Below, piece by piece: positions 39,801-41,912 of a stretch of DNA of 64,000 nt. Position 1 is the stretch's first letter. Each line of letters begins with the position of its first letter. Source of the stretch: Natrononativus amylolyticus. GTDB taxonomy: Archaea; Halobacteriota; Halobacteria; Halobacteriales; Natrialbaceae. The translations under genes were made by a program, and so were the position numbers. The stretch covers positions 2,666,001 through 2,730,000 of the forward strand of contig NZ_CP101458.1 in assembly GCF_024362525.1 (NCBI RefSeq), in the 5' to 3' direction. Under the pieces are notes generated by a model. That model was not told where the DNA came from, made no database searches, and was given only the letters and a program-made list of their open reading frames with translations.

Positions 39801-40805
39801 TCACTCCCCCTCTTCGAGCGGCGGCCAGTGGCGGGCGTCGGACTCGATCATCCCGAGGAGCTTTCGGCGTCGCTCGCCCAGCCCCTCGAGGTCGTCTTCG
39901 AACGCCGCCGCCGGAGCCGTTGGGATCCCCTCCTCGCGCAGGCGCTCGAGTTCCGGCGGCGGCGGAACGTCGTCGGCGGAGTCGATGAACGCGCCGTCGA
40001 GGGTGTCGAGGTAGCTGTCGACGCTCGAGCGGGCGGCCTCGACCAGCGGAGCCGGCGGCTGGTGTTCGTCGGGAACGCCGTGACGGTACAGCGTCAGCGC
40101 CTCGTCGAAGATCGGGACGGCCATCGCCGAGGCCTGTTCACCGTTCTCGCTGTGGTAGTAGTGCAGGATCGGGTAGGACTTGTGCTGTTCGGCGAGCAGA
40201 TCGAGCTGTGAGGCGAGACTCTCGAGGGGGAGATCGATCCCCTCGAAGTCCCCGCGCGACCAGCTGGCCCGGACGAACGCCTCGCCCCGGTCGCCGAGGC
40301 CGGTGACGCCGTTGGCGAACGCCCGCTTCTCCGAGACCGCGCCGAGCACCGAGAGCACGTAGGAGACGCCGAGGGTGACGAACAGCATCCCCGTCGCGGT
40401 GGTAAAGGAGCTGGCGAGCTCCCAGGTCGACCCGTTGGGCGTGTAGTCGCCGTTCCCGTTCGTGAACATCGTGTAGGCGACGTAGTAGAGCCGCCCCACC
40501 CACGAGGCCGGCTCGCCGGTCTGAGTGTCGAGTAAGGCGTTCTGGCCGCCGGCGAAGAGCAACGTCCAGCCGGTCCAGATGAGCCCGATCCACATCGCCA
40601 GCGTCGCCGTGAGGATGACCGGGCCGGCGAGACTGCGAATCCTGGGGCGGTGTCGACTCAGCCGTCGCAGACCGCTCCAGATCCTGGAGGCCAGCCGCGC
40701 CGAGAGCGGTCCCGAGCCGCCGTCGACCCAGAGGGTCGTCCAGAGGATGTCGACGATCGCCGCCAGCAGAACGATGGCTCCGAGGACCAGAAATACGCGA
40801 CTCAT
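39801..40805 (-). CDS. Two-helix potassium channel-like membrane protein
   Basis: A 334-residue protein with helices at about 4-24, 60-85 and 125-148. The pore segment between the last two reads YTMFTNGNGDYTP, with the selectivity filter at 115-120 as TNGNGD instead of the usual TVGYGD. The C-terminal 180 residues are cytoplasmic and helical with no recognised domain (no RCK/TrkA). It is probably a cation channel; whether it still selects potassium cannot be told. Confidence 0.75.
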   Translation of the reverse strand: MSRVFLVLGAIVLLAAIVDILWTTLWVDGGSGPLSARLASRIWSGLRRLSRHRPRIRSLAGPVILTATLAMWIGLIWTGWTLLFAGGQNALLDTQTGEPASWVGRLYYVAYTMFTNGNGDYTPNGSTWELASSFTTATGMLFVTLGVSYVLSVLGAVSEKRAFANGVTGLGDRGEAFVRASWSRGDFEGIDLPLESLASQLDLLAEQHKSYPILHYYHSENGEQASAMAVPIFDEALTLYRHGVPDEHQPPAPLVEAARSSVDSYLDTLDGAFIDSADDVPPPPELERLREEGIPTAPAAAFEDDLEGLGERRRKLLGMIESDARHWPPLEEGE

Positions 40806-41005: not shown

Positions 41006-41368
41006 CTACGCGAACCCCACGAGCAGCCAGGCGAAGCCGATCGCCGCGAGCGAGACGAGCAGGTTCGCGCCGGCGTTGATCGCGGCGAGTTTGCGGTCGC
41101 CGCGCTCCCATATCTGAACGGTTTCGACCGAAAACGACGAGAACGTCGTAAAGGAGCCGCAGATCCCGATTCCCAGAAACTGGATCGTCGACTCTCCAGC
41201 GCCAGCGAACACCGCCGCGCCGAAGAGGAAGCTCCCGATGACGTTGACCGCGAGCGTCGCCACCGGGACGTCCTCCCAGGTGACGTGGAGGTAGACCCAG
41301 TGGCGCAGCAGGGCGCCGATCGCGCCGCCGGTGCCGACGACGTGGGCGGGCTCGAGGTCCGGGATCAC
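41006..41368 (-). CDS. crcB: Fluoride channel FluC/CrcB, subunit 2
   Basis: A 120-residue four-helix protein of the FluC/CrcB family, which exports fluoride passively. Motifs: GGAIGALLRHWVY, NVIGSFLFGAA and the conserved 'CGSFTTFSSFSVET' (TTFS motif). It overlaps the first crcB by 4 bases. Since each FluC channel needs two copies in opposite orientation, paired genes usually make a heterodimer. Confidence 0.92.
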   Translation of the reverse strand: MIPDLEPAHVVGTGGAIGALLRHWVYLHVTWEDVPVATLAVNVIGSFLFGAAVFAGAGESTIQFLGIGICGSFTTFSSFSVETVQIWERGDRKLAAINAGANLLVSLAAIGFAWLLVGFA

Positions 41369-41754
41369 CGCCGATCACCCCGGAACCGCCGCGCGAGGCC
41401 GCGGCCGGCGAGCACGCCCGTAAAGCCGATCCCGTAGTTCGCGGCGACGATCCCAAGGGCGAGCAGCGGGCCGCCCGCGGTCGCCGTCTGCACCGCGAAC
41501 GTGCTGTAGGTCGTCAGCGAGGAGAGAAAACCGGTGGTGAAGACGAGCCGCGCCTTCCGGTCGACGATTCCGGAGTACTGGGCTTCGTACACCAGAAACC
41601 CGAGCGCGAGGCTCCCGAGGACGTTGACGAGCAACACCGCATAGACCTCCGGGAGCTGTCCCAACGCGAAAAACCGCAGGTTCGAGCCGGCGAAGCCGCC
41701 GATGCCGATGAGTGCGAGCGTCTCGAGTCGAACGAGGGGGTGGGCGTCTGCCAT
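41365..41754 (-). CDS. crcB: Fluoride channel FluC/CrcB, subunit 1
   Basis: A 129-residue FluC/CrcB homolog: GGFAGSNLRFF, NVLGSLALGFLVYEA and 'FLSSLTTYSTFAVQT' (TTYST in place of TTFST). It is the first of the pair and is preceded by a fluoride riboswitch whose 3' end lies 14 bases before this ATG. With the second gene it should form the channel that keeps cytoplasmic fluoride low. Confidence 0.92.
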   Translation of the reverse strand: MADAHPLVRLETLALIGIGGFAGSNLRFFALGQLPEVYAVLLVNVLGSLALGFLVYEAQYSGIVDRKARLVFTTGFLSSLTTYSTFAVQTATAGGPLLALGIVAANYGIGFTGVLAGRGLARRFRGDRR

Positions 41755-41762
41755 GGCTGGTC

Positions 41763-41818
41763 GGTGCAGGGACCGTCAGCCGAGTGCCGGCGGTTGGATC
41801 GGGCGGGCCCCATCGCCC
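41763..41818 (-). ncRNA. Fluoride riboswitch (crcB RNA motif)
   Basis: On the minus strand, just before crcB: stem 1 GGGC/GCCC (41815-41818 with 41801-41804) closing the loop GATGGGGCCC, stem 2 GCCG/CGGC (41788-41791 with 41779-41782) with a five-base loop, then TGACGG. Loop 1 GGGGCC (41806-41811) can pair with GGTCCC (41769-41774) as the pseudoknot. The first 18 bases differ from the Thermotoga petrophila fluoride riboswitch, as I recall it, at one base, and the paired partner base changes with it (A-U to G-C). One deviation is TGACGG instead of TGATGG. The pseudoknot ends 14 bases before the ATG, so control of translation is likely. Confidence 0.85.
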
Positions 41819-41893
41819 GGTTACGACGGGCTACTCGAGAGAGTCCCATCAGCATTGCGGAAGTCGCCGTGCTCTCCGAAGGAAAAGACACAA

Positions 41894-41912
41894 GTTTAGA
41901 CTCCATCTAAAC
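41894..41912 (+). promoter_or_regulatory. Inverted repeat at the start of the cation diffusion facilitator gene
   Basis: GTTTAGA-CTCCA-TCTAAAC: two perfect 7-base arms with a 5-base spacer, ending 5 bases before the ATG at 41918. It lies where transcription would start if the message is leaderless, so a bound repressor would block it. The size and symmetry suit a dimeric metal-dependent repressor such as a DtxR/MntR relative. Confidence 0.6.

Follow-up and report, generated by a model that had tools for sequence, protein, structure and literature searches.

The window, by which the whole 64-kb stretch analysed here is meant, holds on its minus strand a pair of genes of the fluoride channel family, crcB. 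Their coordinates and scores are given in Table 1, together with those of the RNA features that lie in front of them. The two genes share 4 bases, at the end of gene 1 and the start of gene 2. Both match PF02537, and the aptamer lies directly before them, as stated in the preliminary description. The gene that follows the pair (39801-40805, minus strand) carries an Ion_trans_2 domain (PF07885, 26 bits against a cut-off of 22.5). Upstream of the aptamer, and divergent from it, is a cation diffusion facilitator gene, just before whose start a perfect inverted repeat, GTTTAGA-N5-TCTAAAC, is found at 41894-41912. A close form of the repeat recurs in 56 of the 115 riboswitch loci that were fetched, and a metal regulator may therefore use it as an operator.

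Table 1. Position and basis of the features at the crcB locus of the window.
Feature	Position	Strand	Basis
Fluoride riboswitch aptamer (RF01734)	41760..41826	-	Rfam model, 38.6 bits (gathering score 34, E 3.8e-7), model positions 1-64 of 64; haloarchaeal model R2 (41818-41764), 66 bits
P1 hairpin GGGCG/CGCCC (41818-41814 with 41805-41801)	41801..41818	-	sequence, RF01734, covariation
5' pseudoknot strand GGGGCC, in the P1 loop	41811-41806	-	sequence
P3 hairpin GCCG(GCACT)CGGC (41791-41788 with 41782-41779)	41779..41791	-	sequence, RF01734, covariation
3' pseudoknot strand GGTCCC (partner 41811-41806, one G.U pair)	41769..41774	-	sequence, covariation
A40 and U48 (linchpin pair), both kept	41776, 41768	-	alignment
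C at the U41 position	41775	-	survey of own-family copies
Proposed sequestering hairpin of the fluoride-free state: GGCUG (41781-41777) with CAGCC (41759-41755), CGGU (41775-41772) with ACCG (41765-41762)	41755..41781	-	folding and complementarity statistics
Weak promoter-like element CCGCAATGCTGAT (putative)	41848..41860	-	aligned with the BRE/TATA-like block of relatives
crcB gene 1, 129 aa, fluoride channel family	41365..41754	-	PF02537, 57.3 bits (cut-off 32.9); below NCBIfam equivalog cut-offs
crcB gene 2, 120 aa	41006..41368	-	PF02537, 83.8 bits; TIGR00494, 77.1 bits (cut-off 80.45)

The aptamer passes the covariance-model check that had been proposed for it: the RF01734 match lies above the gathering score and is complete. 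RF01734 is the one family that the Rfam search found in the window, and its model has a single match in the whole genome. The haloarchaeal model R2, under which the score is higher, was built from 35 haloarchaeal sequences (alignment A1), the window copy included. In A1, 98.8% of the 490 cells of P1, P3 and the pseudoknot are paired, a percentage that leans high because the sequences were picked as family matches; when the 3' partners are slid, 31-57% are paired. The covariation score is 0.273, against 0.160 for shuffled alignments, and none of 500 shuffles reaches 0.273. Six pairs change on both sides. Among them are two pairs of the pseudoknot, 10-68 and 12-66, where both sides change in 12 and 13 of the 35 sequences; the one appears as AU, GC, GU and CG, the other as UA and CG. 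P1, P3 and the loop-to-3' pseudoknot, as drawn in the preliminary description, are all present in the sequence, and the three helices covary among relatives. By curated score and helix covariation, the element belongs to the fluoride (crcB) riboswitch family, and the window aptamer would be expected to bind fluoride. The distance to the AUG had been put at 14 bases. This is correct for the stretch between GGTCCC and the A (41754), but from 41763, which had been given as the end of the riboswitch, the distance is 8. A40, U41 and U48 are numbered after the Thermotoga petrophila riboswitch, from which the first 18 bases would, according to the preliminary description, differ by one base.

How widely is the element distributed? 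Among 391 genomes of the class, the Rfam model has matches in 66 at E <=0.001, and 34 pass the cut-off. Most copies in the host's own family (which we take to be the Natrialbaceae, the family of Natrinema, Natronorubrum, Halopiger and others) score below the Rfam cut-off because they carry C41 and because their P3 loop is longer by tens of bases. With R2, matches at E <=0.001 are found in 92 of 125 own-family genomes and matches of at least 30 bits in 84, the weaker ones being doubtful; in the family of genome G296 the figures are 50 and 22 of 170. Motif contigs among the matches listed come from Natrinema, Natronorubrum, Natrialba, Halopiger, Halovivax and Natronosalvus. A 15-mer scan of contigs returned mostly chance places, and among the matches listed 10 of 80 loci reach at least 37 bits with R2. 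Two Rfam matches of 23-24 bits (L070, L071) have no crcB behind them and look like chance; R2 matches near 22 bits, including a second one in the host's own genome (L267), are likely chance as well. These were rejected.

Several variants of the arrangement were seen. P3 is longer by tens of bases in own-family aptamers (L042, L044, L222, L239 and others), and the span from P1 to the end of P3 reaches about 200. Own-family crcB genes at L363, L374, L365, L366, L364, L370 and L371 keep the promoter-like block, with the aptamer eroded or missing, as though the switch had been lost repeatedly. In the own-family genome G254, a canonical fluoride aptamer (L007) has no crcB motif downstream and is perhaps an orphan that remained after gene loss. 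In L032 (about 954-1254) a second fluoride aptamer lies some 350 bases upstream of the one that precedes crcB, and L033 is arranged alike. The second aptamer precedes a gene for a hydrophobic protein of 68 or 72 aa, and this gene, unlike crcB, has a Shine-Dalgarno sequence, GGTGGAGGT, before its start. Outside the class, four genomes of other Halobacteriota (G692, G465, G470, G488) have 5-8 fluoride aptamer matches each, several of them close together on one contig.

How might the aptamer act on the genes behind it? The bases in front of the AUG offer a hint. In the aptamer fold of the window copy, the strand GGCUG-A-CGGU contributes to P3, to the ligand pocket and to the pseudoknot. It is also complementary to the stretch ACCG-AC-CAGCC, which runs up to the AUG. 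A hairpin of these two strands would draw on the 3' strand of P3 and on some of the pseudoknot strand, and would therefore exclude the aptamer fold. Folding of the window leader with energies for 1 M salt and nested pairs only, the pseudoknot thus lying outside the calculation, gives the hairpin pairs probabilities of 0.96-1.00 and P3 near 0.

The complementarity is not peculiar to the window. From 71 class-wide matches, 65 copies with an assignable crcB start were retained (L007, L013, L032, L033, L070 and L071 were left out), start codons of haloarchaeal copies being assigned by homology. In these 65 crcB-linked copies, the helix ending at -2 to +1 of the start has a mean of -9.90 kcal/mol, against -4.45 with shuffled linkers, a mean that none of 500 shuffled sets reaches; the shuffles, here and below, permute linker bases singly and ignore relatedness. 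Averaged over 29 genera, the values are -10.4 and -4.4. Held-out copies behave in the same way. Among 56 new own-family places, two (L196, L199) dropped out when the motif was being located, 10 were skipped and 44 were used; their helix mean is -10.62, against -4.69 shuffled, and 0 of 500 sets reach it. Other families supplied 11 new loci, and the 7 usable ones gave -7.70 against -4.83, a value reached by 3 of 1000 sets. Counted by length, 78 of 109 copies from haloarchaea have a helix of at least 5 bp at -2 to +1 (shuffled sets average 10.9 and reach 18 at most), 39 have one of at least 6 bp (3.9 shuffled) and 23 one of at least 7 bp (1.2 shuffled). The other aptamer strands, at -7.53, -6.05 and -6.84, show no excess over their shuffled counterparts (-7.91, -6.41 and -7.17). 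When coding-region windows are used for comparison, the gap is smaller than with shuffled linkers (mean helix -8.46, against -10.50 observed). In the copies L048, L060 and L063, helices of 9-10 bp match the entire GGCUGACGG(U) strand; in 18 of the 109, including own-family L041, L051, L054 and L058, the abutting helix is shorter than 4 bp.

The pairing register varies between lineages, and the helix remains at the start codon. The own-family register is CAGCC with GGCUG, and L002 has CAUCAGCCA with UGGCUGAUG; other registers are GAGUCAU with AUGACUC (L004, L006) and CCAUC with GAUGG (L024, L029). All five pairs of the window register are found in 9 of 31 copies of other families, which use registers of their own. 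Within genus g35, GAUGAC/GUCAUC (L018) is replaced by GACGAC/GUCGUC (L046) and the start-abutting helix is kept. Linkers fit their own aptamer better than that of another family, with means of 5.27 and 5.06 bp, and 1 of 300 swaps reaches the former; the advantage is slight because most aptamer strands are alike.

What this helix would hide is not a ribosome-binding sequence. A 5-nt match to the Shine-Dalgarno sequence GGAGGTGAT is present in 0 of 109 haloarchaeal linkers, and GGAG is present in 5. A translational riboswitch of the kind that hides a Shine-Dalgarno sequence would have one between aptamer and start, and none was seen there. Upstream of the aptamer, relatives have a conserved BRE/TATA-like block at about -39 to -30. 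In 75 own-family and 31 other sequences the AT content is highest at -34 to -30, which would fit a transcription start just in front of the aptamer. The transcription start in the window is predicted at about 41822-41824. In genus g19, crcB genes that lack the aptamer (L344, L345) show, by eye, TTTTAGT roughly 30 bases before the ATG, as expected of leaderless genes.

These features are consistent with a translational ON switch of the crcB pair, in which fluoride frees the flank of the start codon; from the sequence comparisons, we put the probability of this reading at about three in four. The leader, of about 70 nt, would extend from just before the aptamer to the AUG. With fluoride, P1, P3 and the pseudoknot would close and the bases before the AUG would be free. 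Without fluoride, the strand GGCUGACGGU would quit P3, ligand pocket and pseudoknot alike and pair with ACCG-AC-CAGCC, whose last base touches the AUG, and the small ribosomal subunit could then not load. The hairpin would thereby lower translation. The hidden target would be the start-codon flank itself, there being no Shine-Dalgarno sequence to hide. Translational control, as put forward in the preliminary description, thus gains support from comparison, albeit by a route that it did not name, i.e. the 3' strand of the aptamer pairing with the bases that abut the AUG. An OFF switch was dropped as a candidate because crcB genes export fluoride. That haloarchaea hold a whole lineage of natural riboswitches gating Shine-Dalgarno-free initiation, with one aptamer strand serving either the pocket or a start-touching helix, appears somewhat better than an even bet.

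Could the aptamer act on transcription instead, a terminator forming before crcB when fluoride is absent? Many bacterial crcB RNAs are described as overlapping predicted terminators (PMC2864571; PMC13273304), but in the window no terminator hairpin with a T-run was found before the gene: the conserved alternative hairpin ends at the AUG and coding sequence comes next. The haloarchaeal linkers have a median length of 15 nt, and only 7 of the 109 carry a run of four Ts, always just after the pseudoknot strand and upstream of the 3' arm of the hairpin. Termination is thus quite unlikely here. A general haloarchaeal start context, independent of the aptamer, would also account for a CAGCC-AUG box. 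Within the own family the box varies little, not much is lost when aptamer strands are exchanged between families, and the box also stands before 7 of 36 own-family crcB genes that lack a convincing aptamer (G312, G028, G142, G307, G398, G362, G254). These 36 genes were chosen for having no convincing R2 match and include distant paralogues and eroded copies; several of those with the box (e.g. L365, L366) keep visible aptamer remnants and can be read either way. However, the box is found in 57 of 78 own-family crcB genes with an aptamer, against the 7 of 36 without (Fisher p 1.4e-7, relatedness ignored). The registers of other families match the bases of their own aptamers, as in L004, L006, L024 and L029, and the helices of at least 7 bp far outnumber those of the shuffled linkers. 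An aptamer-independent context is therefore unlikely.

It might also be argued that the own-family aptamer is decaying or has been retuned, U41C and the G.U pair of the pseudoknot having removed or changed ligand binding. The score of 38.6 bits, the many own-family copies under the Rfam cut-off and the eroded copies in relatives (G202, G005, G142, G307) point in this direction. The deviation TGACGG for TGATGG, which the preliminary description had singled out, is real, but it is a trait of the whole lineage and no defect of the window copy: C41 was found in 33 of 34 crcB-linked own-family copies in the first survey. The 44 later own-family copies were left out of this evidence, since they had been picked by CTGACGG or near forms. 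The RF01734 consensus has U at position 41, and all 27 aptamers of other Halobacteriota have T. A complete aptamer of 45.6 bits on a Spirochaetaceae contig (L139, 2327-2377) has C41 and the same GGCTGACGGTCCCTG as haloarchaea. C41 is therefore not confined to archaea, and U41 is a frequent consensus base rather than an invariant one. The aptamer core, moreover, is nearly invariant across 34 own-family copies, and A40 and U48, described as forming the linchpin pair when fluoride is bound (PMC8752731), are invariant in all 35 sequences of A1. Decay or altered binding is thus very improbable, and the translational ON switch is the reading kept here.

Archaeal fluoride riboswitches are known in general, as accounts of the family report (PMC2864571, PMC4247193) and as the preliminary description held. 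Its remark that a leader is unusual in a haloarchaeon fits a report that 72% of protein-coding transcripts of Haloferax volcanii are leaderless, and from data on that organism control by structured leaders was judged 'not typical in haloarchaea' (PMC4983044). According to a sentence in a review, the fluoride switch of Thermococcus kodakarensis is the one natural riboswitch of archaea that has been determined experimentally (PMC8241225). In the open-licence literature, neither a natural haloarchaeal riboswitch nor a start-codon-flank platform was found in print. The aptamer family is known; the haloarchaeal expression platform looks new. If the proposed mechanism is true, no natural riboswitch would have been shown in haloarchaea before this one, and its platform would be of a class whose target is no ribosome-binding sequence. 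Translation start on leadered haloarchaeal mRNAs without a Shine-Dalgarno sequence is poorly understood. A ligand-controlled block at the start-codon flank would offer a handle on such initiation, and a fluoride-inducible tool for halophiles.

How does the putative switch compare with known systems? The fluoride riboswitch of Thermococcus kodakarensis, reportedly the subject of a study by Speed et al. 2018, is a natural point of comparison. It is archaeal and is called translational, and it is by these descriptions that it is likened to the window element (PMC11077080, PMC8241225). About 12% of transcripts are reported as leaderless in that organism (PMC4983044). Other Halobacteriota, methanogen-type classes of the same phylum as the window host, have aptamers over the Rfam cut-off; a 5-nt Shine-Dalgarno match or GGAG lies within 22 nt of the start in 16 of 24, and the box in 0 of 24, with starts chosen heuristically by a length rule. 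The synthetic theophylline riboswitch E of Haloferax volcanii is described as likewise hiding the start-codon region in a hairpin; it differs in being engineered and in hiding a Shine-Dalgarno sequence too (PMC8241225). With the RF01734 family as a whole, the window element shares aptamer structure, conserved core and gene context. It is set apart by U41C, a mark of its own family, by a P3 that in many relatives is tens of bases longer, and by the candidate platform that abuts the AUG.
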